Assembly (NCBI GenBank): GCA_015228935.1
Contig: JADGCO010000007.1
Coordinates: 14,389 to 76,041 of the forward strand
DNA length: 61,653 nt
Reading direction: 5' to 3'
DNA from: Magnetococcales bacterium
Lineage (GTDB): Bacteria; Pseudomonadota; Magnetococcia; Magnetococcales; DC0425bin3
Both the position numbers and the translations under genes were made by a program. Below are positions 19,575-38,500 of this stretch, in pieces; the first letter of the stretch is position 1; every line of letters starts with the position of its first letter. Under the pieces are notes generated by a model, which had not been told where the DNA came from, did no database searches, and saw only the letters and a program-made list of their open reading frames with translations.

Positions 19575-21701
19575 ATGAGCATTCGTGACGATGAGAACAA
19601 TCCCATGAACCCCTGGGCCGCCAACAAACTCTGGGACGGTATGCGTCAAATTCATACCCAAAACGAACCTTTCGGCCAAGGCGTGGCCACCTGGCGACTC
19701 CACATGGGACTGGGCAATATTCTCGGTAAGAGTCAATTGCCACCCCCGGATTATGTACTCTCCCGGCTCACGGACAATCCCGCGCAGTTGGCAGCGCGGC
19801 GACAGGACCAGAAATACGCCCAACAGATGAAAAACTGGGACCAGGTTGCGCAAATTGATCAGGAGTTTGCCAACATTGCGCCATTCAACAAGCAATACGG
19901 TCCCATGATCGACCAGTTTAAAAAGTTGTACCAGGAACCAACCGTCCAGAATACCCAATCTCTTTCCACAACCACCACCCATCCGTCGGCATTTTCAGGA
20001 ACGGATCCTGTTCCGACCGACAATCCTTTTGATCGCAAACCTCTGCCTGCCAAAAAGCCGAAATACGTCGTTGATATCACACCCAAACCCTCTCAATCCC
20101 TTGCGGAAATGGGTGCTGGCCTTGTCGGTGAGCAACATGCTGATGATTCAGGATATTCCTCTATACAACAAGGGGAATGGGGCGATCCCTCCGCCAGAAA
20201 ATCTGCACGAGGATATGGCATTGATGACTGTGTACGGATTCCAGGGATGCATGATCCTTCTGTCGCCCATACTTCCTGGTCTATTCCTCGCAACGGACTG
20301 TTTACTGACCAAATCATGAAGCGCGCCCAAGCTGCGCGATTCAATCAATATGCTGCGCTGGATGGGGCATACGGCCAGAGTGAACCGGAAACCATTTCCG
20401 ATGCCACGCCGGACCCTGGCTCGAATGACTATTTGCATGATAATGCAGGCCCCCAGTATCAAACCAACCAAAAGACCGATGACCAGGAGAAGCGCACGTT
20501 CGTATTCAACTATGCTTTGAAACCAAACGGTCTATATCCAAAATTGCCATGGAAGATTTTTCAATCAGAACTTCCTGCTCTATACGCCTTGACAGTGGGG
20601 ACAACGGACCGGAAACAACCTGAAGCAATAGAACTGCATCCAGCATTGAAGGCAATACCGTCCAAGGATATACAATACCATGACTTGTTCCATGACGTGG
20701 TTGACCCGGAAACGAGAAAACAGGTGGATGATCTTGGTTATGAGGTGGTTCCACCTGGATACGAAGGACCACTTGCGAACAACCAGATAACCTTGCCACA
20801 ATACGAAGCTCTGCTCCGGGAAGAAGGAACGAAGCACAATTGGGGAGCGTTGGATGCTGTTCAAATGAAGGCGGAAAACATGTATCGTTCGGCAAAAAAA
20901 ACGGTAAATACGGTGCAGAAGAAAGCCGAAGATATATATCAAACCGTCAATGATCAGTTCGAGATGGATGTTGAGAAGAAAGATAGAATGAAAAAAGCGT
21001 GGGAGGAAAACAGAAAAATAGACTACGATAACCTTGGATATCACCCAGATGGCGCACAAGATACGCATTTAAGAAATGCGAAAGATGCGTGGATTCGAGG
21101 CCATAAAAACACAATAAATATTACGGCGAGAAGATATGGTATTCCACCAGAGGTCTTGGCTGGAATTGCTTTCTCAGAGGTGGGTGGGGATCCCGATTGG
21201 ATTGATAATGTAGCTTATCCAGTACGTAAGGTGGTTCATGGTTTCCTGGAACCAGAAACCATTAAAAATTTTCCGGATTGGATGGATAAGATCAAGAAAA
21301 CTCCTCTAGAAACCTCAGCAGGCGATGTTTCCATCCAGATCAGAAGAGTTGCCGAGGTTGAGGGATTGGATGCGTATGATCCCAAAATTCAAGCAGAGAT
21401 CCTCGACAGGCTCCAGAAAAGTAAAGCTTATAATCTGGATGTTTCTGCCAGACATGTCAGAGACTTTTTTGTCAAAATGTATCCAGATCACCAAGGCGGT
21501 GACTGGAACGAAGAACAGGTCAAGCGTATGGGATATTATTACAATAAGGGACCTCACGATACAATTAAAAATCCAAAAAAAACCGCAGCAGATCTGGATA
21601 CTGAATTTATCGGTGGTGGCAAAACCAGTTATGGAAGAGACTTATGGAGAAAAATCCCTTATATGAAAAAATTGTTGGATCCGGGGTTGCTGAGAGAGTA
21701 A
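19575..21701 (+). CDS. large protein with C-terminal lysozyme/transglycosylase-like domain (putative effector)
   Basis: The 708-residue protein has no signal peptide. The N-terminal ~430 residues are Pro/Gln/Asn-rich and unrecognised. A helical linker follows (about 440-510). The last ~190 residues open with ITARRYGIPPEVLAGIAFSE, a pattern like the start of lysozyme-fold muramidases, with a candidate catalytic Glu at about 535. It is followed by two AT-rich, paralogous membrane proteins, the arrangement of a peptidoglycan-targeting toxin with periplasm-facing immunity. Base composition falls toward AT along the gene, as in toxins with swapped C-termini. The toxin call is inference; the delivery route is unknown, though type I secretion genes lie next door, convergently. 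Confidence 0.65.
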   Translation: MSIRDDENNPMNPWAANKLWDGMRQIHTQNEPFGQGVATWRLHMGLGNILGKSQLPPPDYVLSRLTDNPAQLAARRQDQKYAQQMKNWDQVAQIDQEFANIAPFNKQYGPMIDQFKKLYQEPTVQNTQSLSTTTTHPSAFSGTDPVPTDNPFDRKPLPAKKPKYVVDITPKPSQSLAEMGAGLVGEQHADDSGYSSIQQGEWGDPSARKSARGYGIDDCVRIPGMHDPSVAHTSWSIPRNGLFTDQIMKRAQAARFNQYAALDGAYGQSEPETISDATPDPGSNDYLHDNAGPQYQTNQKTDDQEKRTFVFNYALKPNGLYPKLPWKIFQSELPALYALTVGTTDRKQPEAIELHPALKAIPSKDIQYHDLFHDVVDPETRKQVDDLGYEVVPPGYEGPLANNQITLPQYEALLREEGTKHNWGALDAVQMKAENMYRSAKKTVNTVQKKAEDIYQTVNDQFEMDVEKKDRMKKAWEENRKIDYDNLGYHPDGAQDTHLRNAKDAWIRGHKNTINITARRYGIPPEVLAGIAFSEVGGDPDWIDNVAYPVRKVVHGFLEPETIKNFPDWMDKIKKTPLETSAGDVSIQIRRVAEVEGLDAYDPKIQAEILDRLQKSKAYNLDVSARHVRDFFVKMYPDHQGGDWNEEQVKRMGYYYNKGPHDTIKNPKKTAADLDTEFIGGGKTSYGRDLWRKIPYMKKLLDPGLLRE

Positions 21702-21799
21702 CTGGAAAAACGGAAACATGAGAGATGCCGGTAATGGTAAATCCTGTGCATCTCTCATTGTTCCATATAATACAAAATTCACAATAAAGGATTATTATA

Positions 21800-22363
21800 G
21801 TGAAACGCAATCCATCAAAAAAGCCAGCATCTAAATTTATTATGGTTGTAAAATTATTTTTACTTATATTATGGGCAATGTTCTTTAAACTAACAATAGA
21901 ATTAGCTGATGATTCATTTATTATTAAAGAAGATAGAGAAAGAGTTATTGAATATATAAAAAGTGAAGGTGATTATAATGATAATAGCGATGTAATAATC
22001 ATTTTGTTTTATCTGTTTATTATTCTATTGTACATAATCTCATTAATCTGTGTTCTTATAATATTTGCAGTTAAAAAAGATAAATTAAAAATTACACTCG
22101 TTGCTTTAGAGTTGTTGCCAATTTTGTGTTATATTTTAGTATATAATATTAATTCATCAGTATATCACAAGTGGCCAACATCAAGTGAAAAACAAGAAGA
22201 TCTTGTGATGAACTCTACAATAAATGCAATAAATTTCTGGTCATACTGCGAGGCAAGATATGAATATGTTGAAGATGCTGAAGGTTCCTGCAAAACAGTT
22301 TTGCTAATTATTAGATCTTATAAAAATAAAGAAAAATTTAAAGAAAAAATTGTGATTCATTGA
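21800..22363 (+). CDS. AT-rich membrane protein, putative immunity protein (copy 1)
   Basis: The 187-residue protein has three membrane helices (about 15-37, 63-90, 98-120) and a C-terminal ~65-residue domain with two Cys (SYCEAR and GSCKTV). With an N-in topology the C-terminal domain would face the periplasm. It starts at GTG 21800, eight bases after AAAGGA. It is paralogous to the gene at 22605: both share the frame ELxPxLxxxxVYNIN, an aromatic-W-P motif, then NAINxWSxC and SYKN. The gene is strongly AT-rich compared with the chromosomal genes around it, indicating transfer. Immunity to the upstream lysozyme-like protein is inferred from order and topology. Confidence 0.7.
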   Translation: MKRNPSKKPASKFIMVVKLFLLILWAMFFKLTIELADDSFIIKEDRERVIEYIKSEGDYNDNSDVIIILFYLFIILLYIISLICVLIIFAVKKDKLKITLVALELLPILCYILVYNINSSVYHKWPTSSEKQEDLVMNSTINAINFWSYCEARYEYVEDAEGSCKTVLLIIRSYKNKEKFKEKIVIH

Positions 22364-22413
22364 CATTTATAAATAAACATGCAACACAGAATTCACAATA
22401 AAGGATTACCAAG

Positions 22414-22554
22414 ATGATGCATAATTCATCAAAAAGACCTACATCTAAATTTTCTACAATCATGAAAATGTTTTTTCTTAACTGGTATTCACAAACTTCG
22501 CGGAAGATATATACCTATAACACATCACGAATGCGTCTTTCGCAATCTTTTTAA
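22414..22554 (+). pseudogene. truncated third copy of the putative immunity gene
   Basis: A 46-codon frame begins MMHNSSKRPTSKFSTIMKMFF, clearly related to the start of copy 1 (KRNPSKKPASKFIMVVKLFF). After about 24 codons similarity stops and TAA follows at 22552-22554. The leader TTCACAATAAAGGATTA before it matches the leader of copy 1 almost exactly. It is a remnant of a duplication, not a working gene. Confidence 0.75.
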
Positions 22555-22604
22555 TGTTTATTCACCGTAAATACGCTGAAATTATAAAATACGAGAGCCA
22601 ATAA

Positions 22605-23150
22605 ATGCGCCATATACCAAATAAAATAGGCACATTAGTCTTTATATTTTTTAAACTGTGTGTGCTTTCCATATGGTTAAATGCTACAATTCAAATAATT
22701 GAATCTGCAGATTACCCATTCATTATTAAAGACAGCGAAGTCTGCATGGAAAATCGTGAATATGTCGAAGTATGTGAACGTGGAGGTAGCCAATGTAATG
22801 AAGATAGGATGTATTCATTTTTTTTAACGTTATGCGTATTTATTTATTTTTTGTCATTAATTATTTTTCCGATTATTGTTTATAAAATAAAAGGATGGGA
22901 AAGAAAAATTCTTTGGGTGACAGTAGAATTAATTCCACTTTTGTTACATATGTTAATATACAATATTAATGAGTCTATATACTATGAATGGCCAAAAGAG
23001 AAAGCAATACAAGAAGAACTTCTTAAAGACCCTACAAAAAACGCAATAAATTATTGGTCGTTTTGCAATGCAAGATCCAGAAGTTTAAATTATGTAAAAA
23101 GTGCAGAATGCGATAAAATATTGATTATTACTAAATCTTATAAAAATTAA
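22605..23150 (+). CDS. AT-rich membrane protein, putative immunity protein (copy 2)
   Basis: The 181-residue paralogue of the 21800 gene has the same three membrane helices, and a more Cys-rich first outer loop (VCMENREYVEVCERGGSQC). The C-terminal domain keeps NAINYWSFCNAR and a second Cys. After the stop, the DNA still matches copy 1's 3' end (AAAGAAAAATTTAAA), but an extra T has shifted the frame and shortened this copy. Divergence between copies suggests immunity to different effector alleles. Confidence 0.7.
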   Translation: MRHIPNKIGTLVFIFFKLCVLSIWLNATIQIIESADYPFIIKDSEVCMENREYVEVCERGGSQCNEDRMYSFFLTLCVFIYFLSLIIFPIIVYKIKGWERKILWVTVELIPLLLHMLIYNINESIYYEWPKEKAIQEELLKDPTKNAINYWSFCNARSRSLNYVKSAECDKILIITKSYKN

Positions 23151-23251
23151 AGAAAAATTTAAATAAAAAAGCCGCCAATGGGGATGGTTGAGGACAAGCA
23201 TATCATCCGCTATACAAAATGCCAATACCTTAATAAAAGATGAAAACATTC

Positions 23252-24592
23252 TCACCGTTCCCGCAAGGCATTGGATTTGGCCTTGAGAATGGGTTTCAGT
23301 AGATAATCCAGGACGGTCTTTTTGCCGGTGATGATATCCACCACGACCACCATGCCGGGAATGATGGGCAGGGGTTTTTCCGGGGAGCCAAGATGATTTT
23401 TTTGGGTGCGCACCTGAATCCGATAAAAATGCTCGCCCCGTTCGGTACGTTCGCCGCTGTCATCGACGATGGTGTCGGCACTGATGTGAACCAGTTCCCC
23501 TTCCAGCCCGCCATAAATCGAATAATCGTAGGCCGTAAACTTGACCATGGTCTTCAAACCCGGATGGAGAAAACCAATATCGGCAGGCCGGATGCGGGCC
23601 TCGATCAGCAAAGAATCCTCCAAAGGCATGATTTCCATGAGATCCACACCGGGACGAACCACCTGACCAATGGTGCTGACCTTGATTTGCAACACCGTGC
23701 CCCGCACAGGTGACCGAACCGCCGTGCGCGTCACCCGATCCTCCATGGGGGTCATGGACTCCCGGATGCTGTTCAATTCCCCCTTGGCCGTATTCAAATC
23801 GATGAGGGTTTGCTTGCGAAACTCCAACAGGGGTTCATTGGCCTTGGAACGCACCTCTTCCAGGGCAGACCGAATTCGGGGAATGGCCAGGGTAGCATTT
23901 TCATGGGCGGCTTCCAGTTCGGCGGCTTCGCGTTGCAGACGCAGCAGCTCCACCTGGGACATGACCCCCTGTTTGACCATCGGTTCGGTGATGGTCAACT
24001 CCTTGCGAACCATGCTCAGACGGCGATCAATCTGCTTTTGAGATGCGGTCAGCTCGACAATCTCCTGCTCTTTCTGCTCCACCTGACTGCGCAAAATACG
24101 CTGGCTGGACTCCAACGACCGCCGCCGACTCAAAAAAAGCTCTTTTTCGCTGTTGGCCAGACCAGGCTGCTCTTTGACAACCTCGGCAGGCGGCACAAAC
24201 TCTGTGGCCCCCTCGGCCTCGGCGGTCAAACGGGCCGTCCGGGTGAGCAAACCGAGATAACGCATATGATTTTCGCGAAATGTGGAACGGAACTGGGTGT
24301 CGTCGATGCGGAGCAGAACATCCCCTTTTTGCACCACGTTGCCTTCCTTGACAAGAATTTCGGCAACGATACCCCCTTCCAGATTCTGCACCACCTGGAC
24401 CTGCCCCGATGGAATGACACGCCCATTCCCCACGGTGACCTCATCCAAGCCGGCATACCAGGCCCAAACCACCGCTGCCACAAAAAACACTGTGATCAAA
24501 AACAACAACAGGTGCGAGAAAGGGTGCAGACGCCTCTGCCGGGCGGCGGCGGTCTCGGGATAGAAATCACTTTCCTGCCAGGCGTCGCTCAT
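23252..24592 (-). CDS. HlyD-family membrane fusion protein of a type I secretion system
   Basis: After an N-terminal anchor (LLLFLITVFFVAAVVWAWYAG) come the HlyD lipoyl halves (VVQNLEGGIVAEILVKEGNVVQ early and SPVRGTVLQIKVST late), separated by long coiled-coil hairpins. This subunit bridges the inner-membrane ABC exporter to TolC. The ATG at 24592 lies 2 bp after the ABC gene's stop, with GGAGGG upstream, so the two are one operon. No TolC homologue is present in the window. Confidence 0.95.
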   Translation of the reverse strand: MSDAWQESDFYPETAAARQRRLHPFSHLLLFLITVFFVAAVVWAWYAGLDEVTVGNGRVIPSGQVQVVQNLEGGIVAEILVKEGNVVQKGDVLLRIDDTQFRSTFRENHMRYLGLLTRTARLTAEAEGATEFVPPAEVVKEQPGLANSEKELFLSRRRSLESSQRILRSQVEQKEQEIVELTASQKQIDRRLSMVRKELTITEPMVKQGVMSQVELLRLQREAAELEAAHENATLAIPRIRSALEEVRSKANEPLLEFRKQTLIDLNTAKGELNSIRESMTPMEDRVTRTAVRSPVRGTVLQIKVSTIGQVVRPGVDLMEIMPLEDSLLIEARIRPADIGFLHPGLKTMVKFTAYDYSIYGGLEGELVHISADTIVDDSGERTERGEHFYRIQVRTQKNHLGSPEKPLPIIPGMVVVVDIITGKKTVLDYLLKPILKAKSNALRER

Positions 24593-24593
24593 C

Positions 24594-26930
24594 TCACCCT
24601 CCAGCCTGCCGGAAGCGACCTTCGGCGAGTTGCCGCAGGACCACATCCCGGGGTCCGTCAGCCAGGATGCGCCCATCCTCCACCAGGATCAACCGTTCCA
24701 CCAGGGTCAGCAGGGAGGCCTTGTGGGTCACGAGGAGCAGGGTTTTTCCGGGCAGAATGGCCGAGAGATTGTGTTTGAAACGCTCTTCGGCACCACTGTC
24801 CATGGCGCTGGTCGGTTCGTCGAGAAGGAGCAGCGGCGGATCGGCCACCAGGGCACGGGCAATGGCCAGACTTTGGCGCTGTCCGCCGGAGAGGCCCCTC
24901 CCCCCCTCGCCTATGGGCAGATCAAACCCCTGGGGGTGCCTGCCGATGAAAACGTCTGCCCCAGCCAAGGTCGCGGCCCGCAGGACATCCAGATCGTCGG
25001 CAAACGGATGCCCCAGGGTGATATTGTCCCGGGCGGTTCCAAAAAAGAGCAGCGGTTCCTGGGGGACACAGCCGATGCTGCGCCGCAGATCAGCCGGATC
25101 AATCTGACGAATATCGGCCCCATCCGCCAATATGGCCCCTTCCTGGGGTTGGAGAAGACCCAAAATCAGCTTGAAAATGGTGCTTTTCCCCGACCCGATC
25201 CGCCCAATGAAGCCGACCCGTTCCCCGGCCCGGATATGAAAAGAGACCTGGCGCAGGACCGGGGCAGAGAGACCCGGATACTGGAATAACACCTCCTGGA
25301 AGGTGATGCCGCCAGAAAGTTGCGGGCGATGGAGAAAGCGGACTCCCGGGGGACGTTCCACCGGCAGGGTCATGATCCGGTTGAGCATTTTCAGGGAGAC
25401 CAAAGATTGCTGAAGGCGGACCAGAATGCCGGCAATCTGGGACAAAGGTGCCAGGGCACGGCCCGTCAGAATGGAACAGGCCACCAGGGCACCCGTGGTC
25501 AGCTCGCCGGCGGCGATGAGATAGGAACCATGGACCACGACCGCCACCGTGGCCAGATTGGTGGCCAATGCCGCAAAATTGACGGCCAGCGAGGAGATGA
25601 AGCGCGATTTCAGGCCCGAATCCGCCGTCATGGCCACGCACTGTTCCCATTTGCGTTGCATGACCCCGGTGGCACCCAGGGTTTGAATCGCTTCCAGACC
25701 ATTCAAGGTTTCCACAAGAACGGCATGTTTCTGGGACGACTCTTTGAAGCTTTTTTTGACCTCGCGCCCCAGGGGAAACTGCAACAGAATGCCCACCAGC
25801 AGAACGACCGGCACGGTCATGAGCGGAAACCAGGCCGCCGACTTGCCCAAAAAGGCCACCATCCAGAGGAACAACACCAGAAAGGGAAGGTCCATGAAGG
25901 CCGTCAGGGTGGCCGAGGTAAAAAAATCCCGCAAAGATTCAAATTCATGCAGATGCTTGGCCAAGGCACCGGTCGAGCCGGGCTGGGCCACCATGCGCAG
26001 ACCGATGACATGTTCGAAGAGCATGCTGGCCATGAGCATGTCGGCCTTTTTGCCGGCCATGTCCAAAAAATAGCCCCGCAACGAACGAAGAATAAAATCA
26101 AATAGATAAACCGATGTGACACCAATGGCCAGGACCCACAGGGTCTCCATGGCATTGTTGGGCACCACCCGATCATAGACATTCATCACAAACAACGGAC
26201 TGGCCAGGGTGAACAGATTGATCAGGAGCGAAGCAATGATCACCTCGCCATAGATCGGCCAATAACGGCGCAGGGTGCCCCAAAACCAGGTCTTGGGGGG
26301 GGGATCGGTATGCTCTTCGGCGCGGGAATCGAACTGAAACGCCGGTCGCACAAAAATGGCATGTCCGACATAGTGTTGTTTCAGTTCTGCCAGGGAGATT
26401 TCCGCCGTGCCGGTGCCGCTGTCGGGTTGAATGACGTGTGCCATTTTTGTGACATCATCCCGTTTGGTCAGGATGCAGGCCTGCCGCTCCTTGAGCAACA
26501 GGACGACCGGCATGGTCAGGGGAGAGATGCGTTCCAGGGATTTGCGCATGGTACGAGCGGCCAGGCCGGCCCGGGTGGCGGCACGCATGAAAAGCTCCGG
26601 GGTCAGCCGGTTATCGACCAGAGGCAAACCCGTCCGCAGAGCCTCTTCCGAGGCCGGACGGTGCCAATGCCGGGTCAGGATGACCAGACATTGCAGCAAC
26701 GGATCATCCCAGGTCGCCCGGCCTGAGGGTGTCTCCCAGGCAGGGGATGCGGATGCCGTTGTGACAGGTGCAGAAGCGGCAGCCGATGTCGTTGTGACGG
26801 GTTCGGGCACCGCAGCCGATGTCGTTGCAGCAGACCCGGACGCCGCAGCCGATGTCGTTGCGACAGGTTCAGGCACCGCAGCCGATGTCGTCGCGGCAGG
26901 TTCAGGCGCAGCAGAAGAATGGGGCGTCAT
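24594..26930 (-). CDS. type I secretion ABC permease/ATPase with C39-like N-terminal domain
   Basis: Order of parts: an Ala/Thr/Pro repeat tail; a C39-like domain lacking the peptidase Cys (DDPLLQCLVIL...VILLKERQ type); six membrane helices; and an ABC ATPase with Walker A GRIGSGKS, signature LSGGQRQ and Walker B LLLLDEPTSAMD. It resembles the LapB class that exports large RTX adhesins without cleaving a leader. The start is unclear: ATG 26930 is chosen, and upstream in-frame starts reach 27044. It is divergent from the H-NOX-like gene. Confidence 0.93.
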   Translation of the reverse strand: MTPHSSAAPEPAATTSAAVPEPVATTSAAASGSAATTSAAVPEPVTTTSAAASAPVTTASASPAWETPSGRATWDDPLLQCLVILTRHWHRPASEEALRTGLPLVDNRLTPELFMRAATRAGLAARTMRKSLERISPLTMPVVLLLKERQACILTKRDDVTKMAHVIQPDSGTGTAEISLAELKQHYVGHAIFVRPAFQFDSRAEEHTDPPPKTWFWGTLRRYWPIYGEVIIASLLINLFTLASPLFVMNVYDRVVPNNAMETLWVLAIGVTSVYLFDFILRSLRGYFLDMAGKKADMLMASMLFEHVIGLRMVAQPGSTGALAKHLHEFESLRDFFTSATLTAFMDLPFLVLFLWMVAFLGKSAAWFPLMTVPVVLLVGILLQFPLGREVKKSFKESSQKHAVLVETLNGLEAIQTLGATGVMQRKWEQCVAMTADSGLKSRFISSLAVNFAALATNLATVAVVVHGSYLIAAGELTTGALVACSILTGRALAPLSQIAGILVRLQQSLVSLKMLNRIMTLPVERPPGVRFLHRPQLSGGITFQEVLFQYPGLSAPVLRQVSFHIRAGERVGFIGRIGSGKSTIFKLILGLLQPQEGAILADGADIRQIDPADLRRSIGCVPQEPLLFFGTARDNITLGHPFADDLDVLRAATLAGADVFIGRHPQGFDLPIGEGGRGLSGGQRQSLAIARALVADPPLLLLDEPTSAMDSGAEERFKHNLSAILPGKTLLLVTHKASLLTLVERLILVEDGRILADGPRDVVLRQLAEGRFRQAGG
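26779..26910 (-). repeat. 33-bp tandem repeat encoding 11-residue units
   Basis: Four 33-bp units start at 26779, 26812, 26845 and 26878, in frame in the N-terminal tail of the type I secretion ABC protein. The peptide unit is of the form TSAA(V/A)xxPVxT, alternating two variants. This points to slippage-driven expansion in a disordered tail. Confidence 0.88.
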
Positions 26931-27060
26931 GCCAAAATTGGTCCCGATTTTGTTGTTCTGTTTGAACACATGGAAATTGACTTGCATAATAGCATAAACA
27001 TGGGTGGGATGCCTGTCGATCAGAACAGAGAAAAAAAACGGCACGAGTCACGAGGCAAGC

Positions 27061-28320
27061 ATGCTGGGTATCATTTTTTTGGCCATGGAAGATTTTCTCG
27101 AAACGACCATCGGGGCAGGATCCTGGACGCGCGCCCAATCCCTGGCCATGCTCGAAGGGAAGGAGTACGTCCCGGAAATTGATTATCCGGATCAGGAAAT
27201 CATGGCCCTGTTCCGGTCGGCCACACGCCTCATGGAAACCGATCTGGAAACGGTCCTGGAACGCATGGGGATTCATATTGCCAGCGGTCTGGTGGAAATG
27301 GGCATTTCCATGGGATTGATCGAGACCCATTGGACCACCATGGATATTCTGGAAAATCTCCCCTTGATTCTACAGGGGGCGGTGGATTCGCAAAATCCCA
27401 ATGTTGTCCCCCCCCCCATTCGTACCCTGCGTTTGCGGCATGGTGAGGCAGCCATCGTCTACTTTTCAGAACGCCAATTGTGCCCCCTGTTGAAAGGCAT
27501 CGTGCAGGGAATTGGTGAGTATTTTGATGAACCGATCACGCAGAGGGAACTTCTCTGCATGAAAAACGGTTCCCCGCTCTGTCGTTTTTCGGTGGCTTTC
27601 AACGATCCCATTCTCATGCGTTTTGTGGATGTGCCACGGGAATTCGAGACCTGTCGTCAACGGGGTGATGAAATTATCTTTTTCAATCAATTCAAGGGAG
27701 TTCCTCTTTCCGGCAAGGGCAAGGTGGAGGGGTGTTCCGAAAACGAGGCCCTGGTGCGCGTGATGCCTGGACAGTTGCAGGCCATGCAGGCGGAAGGTCG
27801 CACTTTTTTGTCCATGCCGCATTTGCCGATTGGCCTTGTGGCCTATGTGCGCGATGTCTATCCCCATCTTGGTGTGGTGCGCTTGTTCCGGATCAGCATG
27901 GCCGAGGGCTATTTTGGCCATCGGGTCTTCAACCGGGTCGAGCCGTCGCAACCCATTGATTCCCGTTTTGTCCTCAACGGTCAGGAACACAAGGCCACCC
28001 TGCAAAACCTCTCCGCCGGAGGGGGGTCCTTCTCCCTGCCCTTGTCTGCTGCCGTGGATGATCTCTCCCTCTTCGATCCTGTCTGGGTCAGCTTTTCCCT
28101 GCCCCTGAAATGGTTTTCGCAGGGCGATACCCTGGAACTCGGCCCCCAGGATTTGGAAGTCTGGGGCAATCTGCTTCACGTCCAGGTTCGGGAGCAGGAG
28201 CGCCTGGTGCGGGTGGTCTTCAACGACTTGACCCACCGGGATTTGGCAGTGATCGATGAGTATCTCAGGAGTCGCCAACAGGAAGTCCTCCCGGAAATCA
28301 AACAGTATCAGGGACCCTGA
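27061..28320 (+). CDS. H-NOX/V4R-like protein fused to a PilZ-like domain, lacking the heme His
   Basis: The N-terminus follows the H-NOX pattern: MLGIIFLAMEDFLE, then DYPDQEI, then YFSER (Y-x-S-x-R, residues 134-138). At the position of the proximal heme histidine (DILENLPLIL against DFLxNLDNLH) there is Leu 104. The next segment, ELLCMKNGSPLCRFSV, is also typical of V4R domains. A PilZ-like region follows with NLSAGGGSFSL. The ATG at 27061 has GAGG upstream. It may sense a ligand without heme and pass it to a c-di-GMP-type module; this is inference from motifs. Confidence 0.75.
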   Translation: MLGIIFLAMEDFLETTIGAGSWTRAQSLAMLEGKEYVPEIDYPDQEIMALFRSATRLMETDLETVLERMGIHIASGLVEMGISMGLIETHWTTMDILENLPLILQGAVDSQNPNVVPPPIRTLRLRHGEAAIVYFSERQLCPLLKGIVQGIGEYFDEPITQRELLCMKNGSPLCRFSVAFNDPILMRFVDVPREFETCRQRGDEIIFFNQFKGVPLSGKGKVEGCSENEALVRVMPGQLQAMQAEGRTFLSMPHLPIGLVAYVRDVYPHLGVVRLFRISMAEGYFGHRVFNRVEPSQPIDSRFVLNGQEHKATLQNLSAGGGSFSLPLSAAVDDLSLFDPVWVSFSLPLKWFSQGDTLELGPQDLEVWGNLLHVQVREQERLVRVVFNDLTHRDLAVIDEYLRSRQQEVLPEIKQYQGP

Positions 28321-28707: not shown

Positions 28708-29676
28708 TCACACCGAGCGGTGTTGAATTTCCGACAGCAGGGCATAAAGCGTTTCGATGCGCGGGATGGCCACGCCCAGTGCCCTGGCAATCCGGACGGT
28801 GTTGCCCAGAATGGCCTCGATTTCCATGGGACGCTTGGCCTCGTGGTCCAGAAGCATGCTTGTCTTATAGGGCTGCATGGTCCGGGTTTCGGCCAGATTT
28901 TTTTCCACCACCTCCGACGGCAGGGGATGGCCGGCCGCATGGGCCGTGACCAGTACCTCTTCCATCACGGCCCGGGCGAGGCTGGTCAATTCCGGTGAAT
29001 TCATGATCTCCCGGGTGGTCAAGCCACCCCCCAGGACCGAAATGGGATTGAAAGGGGCGTTCCAGACCAGTTTTCGCCAACGATCCGTCACAATGGATTC
29101 AGAAACCAGACAGGGAACCCCTGCCTTGCCGAACCATTCTGCCAGATTCCGGGCCGCCAATGACTCCCCTCGCGGATAACGTCCGATGGCCAGCCGACCA
29201 TAGCAGGTGTGACGCAGCACACCGGGTGCCATGCGACTGACACAAATAAAAGCCAAACCGCTCAGAATTTCCTGGTCAGGAAAGGCGGCGGCCACGGCAG
29301 ATTCAATGTCAACCCCATTCTGAATCAACAGGATGACCGTCTTGGGCCCCACCACAGGGCGAATCAGGTCAGCAATGACGATTTCCGGCAGCACTTTCAG
29401 GGTGACGAGGATATAATCCGGGTATCCGTCGTAGTCGGCGGCCTGGCGCAGGACGGAGGCGGGCGTAAAATGAAACCCTCCCTGGGGCGTTTCGATGCGG
29501 ATTCCCTGGGCATGCACGGTTGCAAAGTCCGAGCGGCACACGGCGGATACTTCCAGACCGGCCCGCGCCAAATGTCCGCCATAATAGCCGCCAACCGCAC
29601 CACTTCCCACGACAAGAATCCGGGGAATGGGGGTTGCTTTGGTATCCTTGGCTGCATCAGAGTGAGTTACGTGCAT
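28708..29676 (-). CDS. panE: 2-dehydropantoate 2-reductase (ketopantoate reductase)
   Basis: The 322-residue protein has the N-terminal NADPH-binding loop VGSGAVGGYYGG (about residues 23-34) and the catalytic-Lys region WRKLVWNAPFNPISVLGG typical of PanE/ApbA. It reduces 2-dehydropantoate to pantoate for coenzyme A synthesis. The N-terminus carries a ~17-residue extension before the Rossmann strand, so a later start is possible. It is divergent from the cytochrome c gene. Confidence 0.93.
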   Translation of the reverse strand: MHVTHSDAAKDTKATPIPRILVVGSGAVGGYYGGHLARAGLEVSAVCRSDFATVHAQGIRIETPQGGFHFTPASVLRQAADYDGYPDYILVTLKVLPEIVIADLIRPVVGPKTVILLIQNGVDIESAVAAAFPDQEILSGLAFICVSRMAPGVLRHTCYGRLAIGRYPRGESLAARNLAEWFGKAGVPCLVSESIVTDRWRKLVWNAPFNPISVLGGGLTTREIMNSPELTSLARAVMEEVLVTAHAAGHPLPSEVVEKNLAETRTMQPYKTSMLLDHEAKRPMEIEAILGNTVRIARALGVAIPRIETLYALLSEIQHRSV

Positions 29677-34235: not shown

Positions 34236-34580
34236 ATGAACACCAAGACAATCAAGGCCAGAATTCCCCCCATACACCCAGGTGAAATTCTTAAAGAAGA
34301 GTTCATGGAACCCTTGGGCATTACCCAGTACCATCTGGCCAAGTGTTTGGGTGTTCCTCAGATGCGAATCAGCGAAATCGTGCGGGGCCTGCGTTCCATT
34401 ACAGCAGATACGGCATGGCGACTTGGACGTTTTTTCAGTATGGATCCCGGATTCTGGTCCAACCTGCAATCCCATTATGACATGGAGCAGGCACGTGACC
34501 AGTTGGATGCTTCTGGAGTTTTGGAAAGAGAAGTGACGCCTTTCCGGTATCCACCAGGAATTCACCCGAAAATTGTTTGA
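34236..34580 (+). CDS. higA: HigA-type antitoxin (XRE HTH)
   Basis: The 114-residue protein has the HigA signature IHPGEILKEEFMEPLGITQYHLAK, a helix-turn-helix (VPQMRISEIVRG), and ADTAWRLGRFF. It should bind HigB and repress the locus. Its last 19 bp overlap the 3' end of the convergent GGDEF regulator. The gap 34051-34235 is AT-rich and has no gene; AGTAGG and CCTACT ends lie at about 34156 and 34211. Confidence 0.92.
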   Translation: MNTKTIKARIPPIHPGEILKEEFMEPLGITQYHLAKCLGVPQMRISEIVRGLRSITADTAWRLGRFFSMDPGFWSNLQSHYDMEQARDQLDASGVLEREVTPFRYPPGIHPKIV

Positions 34581-35560
34581 TACATGATCCGGTTTCTGCC
34601 GCTTCTCTTGGCATCATAGAGCATTTGATCCGCTGCCTGGAAAAGGGATTGTGGGTCACACTCCGGCGTGGGAACAATACTGGCAACACCCATGCTCAGG
34701 GTGACAATGGTGTCAACCGTGGAGTGATGATGGGGAATGCGCAGGTCGGCGACCGCTTTTTGAATTTTTTCTGCCAAATGGACCGCTCCAACCATGGGTG
34801 TTGACGGTAGAATACAGGCAAACTCTTCGCCGCCATAGCGGGCCACCAGGTCGGCACTGCGCTCCAGGGTCGCCGCCATGGCACTGGCGATATCTCTCAG
34901 GCATTGGTCCCCGGCCTGATGGCCGTAATTGTCGTTGAATTTTTTAAAATAATCGACATCAATGAGAATGGCCGCCAGGGAAACATCGCCCTGCCGGATG
35001 CTGCGACCCCACTCCTGACGCAAAAATTCATCCAAACGTCGCCGGTTGGCAATGCCGGTCAGGCCATCAATTGCGGCAATTTTCTTCAGCAGATCATTCT
35101 TGAGTTTGAGTTCAATATGGGCTTTGACCCTGGCCCGCAAGATGAAGGGTTTGATCGGTTTGGCTACATAGTCCACGCCACCGGCCTCGAAACCAATCGT
35201 CTCGAATTGCTCTTCATCCATGGCCGTGACAAAGATGACCGGAATTTCGTGCGTGGTGACGTGACTCTTCAAATCCCGGCACACTTCGTAACCATCCATT
35301 TCCGGCATGATGACATCAAGGAGAATCAAGTCAGGTTCCTTGCTCTCTGCCAATTCCCTGACTTTGCGTGGCTGGGTCGAAAACAAAACGCGGTAGTCAG
35401 GCTGAAGAATTTTCGCCAATACCTCGATATTGACAGGCTCGTCATCCACAACAAGAATAACAGGTTTTTTGATTGAATTTTCCATCCGGTTTTTCTTCAG
35501 TGCCGGCAGTTTAAAGTCAGGACCCGGGCCACCCCTGGCAAGATCATCAGGATTGTTCAT
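34562..35560 (-). CDS. response regulator with GGDEF diguanylate cyclase output
   Basis: A receiver domain (VILVVDDEP, phospho-Asp in LILLDVIMPEMDGYE) is joined to a GGDEF domain with DGLTGIANRR and the catalytic RYGGEEF. It should make c-di-GMP when phosphorylated (PleD/WspR class). The start is ambiguous: ATG 35560 overlaps the kinase stop by 14 bp and would allow coupling; ATG 35485 gives a shorter, cleaner receiver. The upstream hybrid kinase is the likely partner. Confidence 0.93.
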   Translation of the reverse strand: MNNPDDLARGGPGPDFKLPALKKNRMENSIKKPVILVVDDEPVNIEVLAKILQPDYRVLFSTQPRKVRELAESKEPDLILLDVIMPEMDGYEVCRDLKSHVTTHEIPVIFVTAMDEEQFETIGFEAGGVDYVAKPIKPFILRARVKAHIELKLKNDLLKKIAAIDGLTGIANRRRLDEFLRQEWGRSIRQGDVSLAAILIDVDYFKKFNDNYGHQAGDQCLRDIASAMAATLERSADLVARYGGEEFACILPSTPMVGAVHLAEKIQKAVADLRIPHHHSTVDTIVTLSMGVASIVPTPECDPQSLFQAADQMLYDAKRSGRNRIMYQTIFG

Positions 35561-38500
35561 TATAATCAACAAGCAAATCATTCACCAGTCTTGCGCCATC
35601 CTCAAATTCAAGATTGTCCAGACAGTGTTCGATCCTGGAGACGATCAAACCATCCACATGCAAAACCAGATGCATCTTGATGGATTTAAAAACTTCCCGG
35701 GCTTGAAAATCCTGGTCTTGAATCAAGCGATGCAATTCTCTCAAGCGGTCTTCAATCTGGTGTCCATTGCCGACAAGACCTTCACTCTCGCTTGAAGAGA
35801 GCCGGACCGGAAGGGGTTGCCAATGGGCAATGGCCTGGATCACATGTGCCACTTCCCCGGTCATGGCATGGATGGCCAGTTTGCATCCTGAAATGTCGTT
35901 TTGACGAATCATTTTTTCAATTTTGCCGGCCAGGAGCGCAACCTTTTTGGCCGAGACATTCCCGGCAGAACCTTTGATGCCATGGACCAGGCGTTGGATG
36001 CCTTCCATGTCGGACTGGTCAAGAAGTGTGGTCACTTCGGCACTCAAGGCTGCGTATTTATTTGCAAAAGCCGTGAGCAGTTTGTTCAGCAAATCAAAAT
36101 CCCCATCAAAACGCTCCAGGGCATCCTGAACGTCGATGCCATACAGTTCCGTCTGTGCCATCTTTTCCTGCCTGGCAGAAAGATCGCCAGGATTGGCAAT
36201 CACGGGCTGGGATTTTCGTCTGCTCTCCAGGAGAGGAGCCAGAACCCTGGCCAGCGTCTTGAACAGATTTTTGATATTGACCGGTTTGGTCATGTAGTCG
36301 TTCATGCCGAGGGCCAGACACCGTTCCTGTTCACTTTTCAGGGCATGGGCGGTCATGGCAATGATGGGCAATTGTGCCGGAGTCAATTTTTCGCGCAATT
36401 TTTGAGTGGCAACGTACCCATCCATGACCGGCATTTGCAGATCCATGAGGAGACAATCGAACTGGCCGTGGTGATTCAGAATACGTTCCACGGCAACCAG
36501 TCCGTTGGTGGCCCGCTCCGTGATGATGCCTGCCTTGCCGAGAATCCCTTCCGCCACCTGCCAGTTGACATCATGATCCTCGACAACAAGAACTCTGGCA
36601 CCCTGCAATATGTTCCGATGTTCCTGTGTTTCTGCATCGTCAATGGTTTCGTACAGCACCGGACTGTTGTCTCTACCATGCATATCCAGGATGGTGTTGA
36701 GCAGCACGGAAGGGGTGACCGGTTTGAGAATGACCCTTTGGATGCCGACATTCCTGGCCTCGGTCATGACATTGCGCCGGTCAAAGGCCGTCACCATGAC
36801 AACCATGGACGACCGGGCAATCTGGTCATTGTTGGATATGCGACGCGCCGTCTCGATGCCGTCCATGCCGGGCATGTGCCAATCAAGCAGGACCATGTCA
36901 TAGGGACGATTGTCCTGACGCATGGCCCGTTCGAGTTCACCGATGGCGGCTTCCCCCGACGTGACGGAAGTATGGGACAAGCCAAGTTCCCTGACCATGT
37001 TTTCGAGTATTTCACGGGCACTGTCATTATCATCGGCAATAAGAACCCGAAGAGACTCCAATTGGGCAGGTTTGACTGGCATCCTGGCTGCATCAACTGC
37101 GGACTGAAATTGTTTCTCGAACGATACGATAAAAGAAAATTTGCTTCCCGAACCCAATATACTGTTTACAAAAATTTCTCCCCCCATCATGCCCACAAGG
37201 CGTTTGCAGATGGCGAGGCCAAGCCCGGTCCCACCATAATTGCGTGTGGTCGAGGTATCGGCCTGGGAAAAAGCCTGGAACAAGCCATCAATCTGCTCTT
37301 GCGACAAGCCAATACCGGTATCCTTGACCGTAAATTCAAGCTTGATGGAATTTTCCATCTCTTCAATTGGATCAACACGAAAGACAACCTCGCCGGAACG
37401 GGTGAATTTGACCGCATTCGTGCCCAGATTGAGCAGAATCTGTTCCAGGCGCAACGCATCGCCAATCAAGGCACGGGGCAAAGTAGCCGGAACAGCAAAC
37501 ATCACTTCCAAGCCCTTTTCCTCGGCACGCAGAGAGATCATGCCGGATACCTTGCTCAGTACAGACTGGAGATTGAATGGAACGTGTTCCAGTTCCAGAT
37601 GACCAGCCTCAATTTTGGAAAAATCCAGAATGTCATCGATGATGCCAAGCAAGGTCTCGGCAGCGATCTGGATTTTTTGCATTTGCACCTGTTGGTTCGG
37701 TTCCAGATCAGATTGGGAGAGCAAATACCCCATACCGATGATGGTGTTCATGGGGGTACGTATTTCGTGGCTCATGTTGGCCAGAAAAATGCTCTTGGCC
37801 TGATTGGCTTTTTCGGCGGCATTCTTGGCTTCGAGCAGGGCGGCGTTCGCCTGTTGGCGTTCGGAAATGTCGCGAATCACGGCAGAGAAAAACCGCTGAT
37901 TCTCTGCACTGACCCAGGAATTCAGGGACATTTCCAGGGGAAGCTCCCGTCCATCCCTGTGGATTCCCGCCAGCTCGGTAATCTGATTGATCAGGGGTCC
38001 CCTGCCATCCTGATTCAGACAACGCAGAAAACCACGCCGATGGGCATCGCCGTAGCGCTCTGGAACCAAAAGATCCAGCTTCTTGCCAAGTATTTCTTCT
38101 TCCACATAGCCGAACAATATCTGGGCACCCTGGTTCCAGAAAATAATGTTCTGATCCTGGTCAACGGCAATGATGGCGTCCCATATGGAGGTGGTCACCG
38201 AACGAAAACGTTCTTCGCTGCTCTGGAGCAGGGAAAAGGTTTTTTCATGGCGCATGACTTCGTTGCGCAGCTCCAGATTGGCAGAAGCAGAATTGGCAAT
38301 GGCATCTTCGAGAGATTTCAATATCTGCTTGCGCAAGGTGATGTCGCGCAGATAGGCAGTAAAAAAGGTGGAATCCTGGCCGGGCGTCACGGTAATGGCA
38401 ACCTCCGTGGGAATGCGGGTCCCGTTGACATCCACGGAAACAAGTTCAATGTGGCGATTGATGACCCGCTTTTCGCCGGTGGCAAGATAACGGGCCATAC

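Follow-up and report, generated by a model that had tools for sequence, protein, structure and literature searches.

A histidine-less H-NOX domain joined to a predicted c-di-GMP effector in a protein family of the Magnetococcales

What does an H-NOX domain sense when the histidine expected to hold its heme is missing, and what does it control when it is followed by a PilZ domain? This question is raised by a gene at 27061..28320 (+ strand) of the window, the 61,653-nucleotide stretch of a Magnetococcales contig (JADGCO010000007.1) that was analyzed here. The open reading frame, which encodes 419 amino acids, was confirmed as previously called. Its ATG at 27061 is the start position used by the homologs and is the likely start because the relatives begin at the equivalent Met; a longer frame from a GTG at 27004 was rejected for the same reason.

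The domain composition was analyzed with profiles and with a predicted structure. Pfam HNOB (PF07700) matched residues 3-160 (E=4.1e-21, 76 bits against a curated cut-off of 25.5), and Pfam PilZ (PF07238) matched residues 296-403 (E=1.6e-5, 25.6 bits against a cut-off of 22.5), a match that was also found in 45 of 46 relatives. The AlphaFold2 model of the protein, built with 46 aligned relatives, had a mean pLDDT of 91 and a pTM of 0.69, so that the individual domains can be trusted, and their arrangement relative to one another less. When the model was compared with the PDB by Foldseek (TM values normalized to the target), the N-terminal half resembled the solved H-NOX structures of S. oneidensis (4u99/4u9b) and Nostoc (2o09) with TM values of 0.86-0.89, and the C-terminal half resembled MotI/DgrA (5vx6), YcgR with c-di-GMP (5y6f), and VCA0042 with c-di-GMP (2rde) with E values of about 1e-7 to 1e-9. 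The architecture is therefore H-NOX–PilZN–PilZ, with all parts on the + strand: an H-NOX (HNOB) domain at residues 1-182 (27061..27606; TM 0.89 to 4u9b), a PilZN-like barrel of the YcgR/MotI N-terminal type at about residues 183-287 (27607..27921), and a PilZ domain at about residues 288-405 (27922..28275). The middle barrel, which is visible in the strands of the model and in the matches to 5vx6, 5y6f, and 2rde, was absent from the first-pass annotation; the evidence for it is structural in kind, because the window protein has no PilZN Pfam match. By profiles and model, the gene thus encodes a soluble three-part signaling protein with an H-NOX input, a PilZN-like middle barrel, and a PilZ output. 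The first-pass annotation had already proposed an H-NOX-like domain and a PilZ-like box and had made its reading depend on a C-terminal PilZ barrel; both domains were recovered above their cut-offs, and the barrel is predicted. Its separate V4R-like segment was not upheld: V4R (PF02830) reached 16.3 bits where its curated threshold is 31, and the C...C-x-F segment is the end of the H-NOX fold itself in the model, so that an independent V4R domain was ruled out.

Replacement of the proximal histidine in H-NOX proteins and in soluble guanylate cyclase normally costs the heme. In the window protein, this position is occupied by Gln105 (CAG, 27373..27375, + strand), which aligns with His103 of the S. 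oneidensis H-NOX. The absence of the histidine had been correctly noticed before, but the residue had been taken to be Leu104, one position away, and this assignment is replaced here. In the core clade of the fused family (40 sequences), position 105 is Leu in 23 members, His in 6, Phe in 4, Gln in 3, Val in 2, Pro in 1, and Trp in 1; that is, 34 of the 40 lack the proximal histidine. Even a congener (L003) that is 79% identical over the protein carries His (CAT), one base away from the Gln codon of the window. On the maximum-likelihood tree, the His/non-His label requires at least six changes and the residue identity at least 10, counts that do not distinguish loss from regain, whereas the cysteine triad described below requires only two on the same tree. 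One member (L021) may represent a regain of His inside a Leu clade. Five fused paralogues (L043-L047) have kept the histidine, and L048 has Asp.

Outside the fused family, the proximal histidine was present in 40 of 40 H-NOX domains. These comprised 12 relatives from other groups, retrieved with a search pattern in which the site plays no part; 23 further domains, of which 19 came from other Pseudomonadota and 4 were unfused domains from the same order; and five stand-alone domains (L049, L052-L055). This is in agreement with the report that the residue is absolutely conserved in 598 sequences (PMC7108781). Fusions of a histidine-bearing H-NOX domain with a Ser/Thr protein kinase were also seen (L088:4560-7181 and L089:4965-6470; Planctomycetota MAG). 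As far as the alignments go, the Magnetococcales fused family has relaxed the strict conservation of the proximal heme histidine, and the window protein is homologous to H-NOX but is not a canonical heme H-NOX. We infer that its H-NOX part functions with no heme held by a histidine and that the signal sensed is probably something other than a heme-bound gas.

The missing residue might be taken as a sign of a pseudogene or an annotation artifact, but nothing beyond the absence of this normally conserved residue speaks for such a reading. The reading frame is open in all full-length relatives, the dN/dS of the window gene is 0.08-0.12 against two congeners, and every domain of the fused protein is under purifying selection (dN/dS about 0.04-0.2 within genera). 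The gene is therefore maintained and is not decaying. Together with the confidently predicted fold, these data refute the possibility of a pseudogene or artifact, and we give it practically no weight.

Other parts of the heme pocket and of the H-NOX fold have been retained. The heme-propionate motif YxSxR, which had been recognized in the earlier annotation, is present as Y134-F-S136-E-R138 (27460..27474, + strand), with Tyr in 40/40, Ser in 38/40, and Arg in 36/40 core members; the proximal Pro118 is found in 37/40, and the hinge glycines Gly70 and Gly146 are invariant. Three cysteines correspond to zinc ligands of the S. oneidensis H-NOX, namely Cys141 to Cys139 (27481..27483; 38/40), Cys166 to Cys164 (27556..27558; 37/40), and Cys174 to Cys172 (27580..27582; 38/40), and 37 of the 40 core members have all three. 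The fourth ligand position (His161 in S. oneidensis) is occupied by Glu163 (27547..27549; 38/40; all four on the + strand), and not by the His or Gln of the characterized zinc sites. YxSxR is lost in four members (L030, L037, L039, and L042). In two of these, the MC-1-like L037 (L037:6506-7753) and its congener L042, the cysteine triad is gone along with the Ser and Arg of YxSxR. A dN/dS of 0.07 was found across the H-NOX domain between L037 and its congener, which indicates that the triad is not essential everywhere; in this lineage, the domain may play an additional role.

The C-terminal half carries the two sequence elements of c-di-GMP binding. R288-V-F-N-R292 (27922..27936, + strand), an RxxxR motif that the first-pass annotation did not mention, keeps its two Arg in all of 46 sequences, and the previously noted box N316-L-S-A-G-G321 (28006..28023, + strand), a [D/N]xSxxG motif, has an invariant Gly321 and a Ser318 conserved in at least 90% of the same 46 sequences. 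The motif of the PilZ output is intact, and c-di-GMP binding is predicted from it. The earlier proposal, in which a heme-independent sensor is coupled to a c-di-GMP-type module, agrees with the H-NOX fold followed by PilZN-PilZ, the absence of His in 34/40, and the invariant Arg residues; the sensor is presumably heme-independent. The same proposal pointed to a GGDEF regulator in the window. This gene is real (Response_reg-GGDEF, a diguanylate cyclase, 34565-35581, - strand), but the implied functional link was rejected, since the genome encodes 39 GGDEF domains and about 0.5 per window is expected by chance. From the modeled fold, the target of the window protein would most likely be the flagellar motor; FliG_C is present in the genome, and no motor gene was seen adjacent to the H-NOX–PilZN–PilZ gene. 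A second protein of the same genome (contig C50; L163:1539-2768, - strand) has a similar PilZN-PilZ half behind a different N-terminal region of about 190 amino acids that matched no Pfam family, and relatives of it occur in G002, G003, G011, G013, G020, and G024. This suggests that, in the Magnetococcales, different sensors have been combined with PilZN-PilZ in modular fashion.

We also compared the gene neighborhoods. The window gene is flanked divergently by an LssB-type type I secretion ABC ATPase (24594..27044, - strand; TIGR03375, E=8e-289), whose true start probably lies inside the interval given; HlyD is also encoded divergently upstream. The same ATPase is divergently upstream in G002, G003, the MC-1-like G013, and others. 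On the other side is a convergent gene for ketopantoate reductase (PanE; 28708..29676, - strand; Pfam ApbA/ApbA_C), a neighbor common to about 25 loci. In 26 genomes of clade C (21 + 5; about 1 kb off in one), the Leu/Phe clade, which is mostly histidine-less, a thioredoxin reductase gene (TrxB; TIGR01292 above the equivalog cut-off, with a CATC motif) is divergently upstream. This adjacency fits a thiol-redox role. It is probably a single ancestral event that gave rise to one conserved block, and TrxB is absent beside the window's own gene. Two further features of the region are imperfect 33-bp tandem repeats at 26749-26913, which encode the Ala/Thr/Ser/Pro-rich N terminus of the ATPase ORF, and a low G+C content of 38% at 21000-24000 (about 49-59% in the neighboring 3-kb stretches), where small membrane-protein-like ORFs are found, one of which was scanned and matched no Pfam family. 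A PilZ protein has been reported near mamAB in Magnetofaba (PMC5088516). The G020/G013 (MC-1-like) pair of the present family is 39% identical, compared with the 31% reported, and lies beside type I secretion genes, so that the Magnetofaba protein is probably a different one.

On balance, we tentatively favor the reading that the H-NOX domain is independent of heme, that it most likely senses redox state through Cys and Zn, and that it controls a c-di-GMP effector of the YcgR/MotI type; it is a plausible proposal, somewhat short of an even chance. The signal would most likely be the thiol/redox state of the cell, and the Cys141/Cys166/Cys174 cluster, probably holding zinc, would read it. Upon oxidation, the two H-NOX subdomains would turn about the Gly70/Gly146 hinge, as proposed for V. 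cholerae H-NOX without heme, and this motion would be passed directly in cis to the PilZN-PilZ unit. The resulting change would set the moment at which the protein, with c-di-GMP bound, docks to its target; by analogy with YcgR/MotI, this is most likely the flagellar motor. The window protein would then detect the coincidence of a redox signal with c-di-GMP, and swimming would be slowed or redirected. There are precedents: in V. cholerae H-NOX without heme, oxidation of the Zn-Cys site elicits a response, probably via the glycine hinge (PMC7108781), and in the C. vibrioides H-NOX, oxidation of a zinc-ligand cysteine, and not NO, is the activating signal (PMC12329717). The redox reading is supported by these precedents, by the retention of the cysteine triad, Glu163, and the invariant hinge glycines while the histidine was lost, and by TrxB in the 26 clade C genomes. 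It is weakened by the Glu in place of His or Gln as the fourth ligand, by the loss of the triad in L037/L042 under purifying selection, by the six members that retain His, and by the fact that the TrxB adjacency is one event and is missing beside the window gene. The flagellar part is weaker as well, because the target follows from the fold and no motor gene is adjacent.

A further weakness of the redox reading is that YxSxR (90-100%) and Pro118 (37/40) have been kept, because a pure thiol sensor would need neither. The same retention, in the face of the lost histidine, would be explained if the emptied heme pocket had been re-used, with another carboxylate ligand, such as free porphyrin, a bilin, or a fatty acid, held by Y134/S136/R138 and gating the PilZ output. 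Carboxylate drugs are known in heme-free H-NOX pockets (4iae, BAY 60-2770 in the Nostoc H-NOX). However, a candidate ligand is lacking, the motif could serve folding, and it is lost in the four members named above; we regard such re-use as unlikely. The retained propionate motif could also mean that heme is still bound, weakly or via another residue, that NO or O2 is sensed as in other H-NOX proteins, and that the members alternate between His and non-His ligation. The six histidine-bearing core members, which are spread over the tree, and the paralogues L043-L047 agree with this, and His72, present in 34/40 core members, could be thought of as another ligand. However, the seven residue types at position 105, most of which are unable to ligate iron, and the usual cost of replacing the histidine make the retention of heme quite improbable. 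His72 was judged unlikely as a substitute ligand. It lies at hinge Gly+2, occurs in four of the six His105 members, and is predicted to face away from the pocket; in the Tt H-NOX, the distal pocket is lined by Gly+3 and Gly+7 (Tt N74/F78).

It is also conceivable that the H-NOX fold is a scaffold or protein-interaction module only and that c-di-GMP is the sole signal. The MC-1-like L037, which is without the histidine, the cysteine triad, and the Ser and Arg of YxSxR at a dN/dS of 0.07, speaks for such a module. Against this, 37/40 core members have the complete triad and the hinge glycines do not vary, and we consider that a purely structural role has a low probability for the family. The favored redox reading can be extended to the history of the family: an order-wide H-NOX family may have given up heme, the accessory Cys/zinc switch would have become the primary sensor, in cis with a c-di-GMP flagellar-brake module, and the mixed His/non-His orthologues would capture the transition. 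We put this forward as possible but somewhat doubtful.

The distribution of the architecture was analyzed next to its sequence features. In the search for the same architecture suggested in the first-pass annotation, a profile of the fused protein matched over its full length in 42 of 48 Magnetococcales genomes (one match is cut by a contig end). Every full-length match among 399 sampled Pseudomonadota genomes was from the Magnetococcales, and none was found outside this order, where either the H-NOX half or the PilZN-PilZ half occurs alone; among 100 near relatives, matches were likewise concentrated in the same order. HNOB is present in 27/27 good-quality Magnetococcales genomes, and the H-NOX–PilZN–PilZ protein is the sole HNOB protein of the window's genome. 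Judged from these genomes, the fused family is order-wide and specific to the Magnetococcales. A review of c-di-GMP sensory proteins lists HNOB only with GGDEF proteins (PMC8846402). In the titles, abstracts, and selected passages of the full-text literature, to which subscription papers mostly do not belong, no description of an H-NOX/HNOB–PilZ fusion, in Magnetococcus or elsewhere, was apparent. What appears to be new is therefore an H-NOX homologue without the heme-ligating histidine whose architecture was seen solely in the Magnetococcales among the 399 genomes. Whether H-NOX proteins signal without heme is a question raised by the V. cholerae and C. vibrioides proteins, in which oxidation of the zinc-site cysteines activates in vitro (PMC7108781, PMC12329717), and a family in which the heme ligand was removed again and again while the cysteines were kept is a clean natural test. 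Magnetotactic cocci swim fast to a redox boundary and would probably benefit directly from a brake under redox control.

Based on its parts, the window protein can be compared with four known systems. It shares the tandem PilZN and PilZ barrels, RxxxR, and [D/N]xSxxG with YcgR, MotI (DgrA), and VCA0042, but adds an N-terminal H-NOX sensor and has no adjacent motor genes, and its c-di-GMP binding is predicted from sequence. The alpha subunit of soluble guanylate cyclase is an H-NOX fold without heme inside a signaling protein; unlike the window protein, it belongs to a eukaryotic heterodimer that carries the heme on its beta partner and has no c-di-GMP module. YcgR-GAZ of Leptospirales is, like the window protein, a YcgR-type protein with an extra putative sensory domain, but this domain is GAF-like and lies between PilZN and PilZ (PMC11800159), whereas the H-NOX domain is N-terminal. 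In the sensor half, the likeness is to the zinc-site H-NOX proteins of S. oneidensis, V. cholerae, and C. vibrioides (HnoX; SSN groups 2/3 of PMC7108781), with which the window protein shares three Cys, the hinge glycines, YxSxR, and the fold (TM 0.86-0.89 to S. oneidensis). It differs from them in lacking the proximal His and in having Glu, not His or Gln, as the fourth ligand, so that it may work like a zinc-site H-NOX and yet is not counted as a member of that group. These proteins act on a separate kinase, cyclase, or phosphodiesterase, whereas the window protein is fused in cis to its PilZN-PilZ unit.
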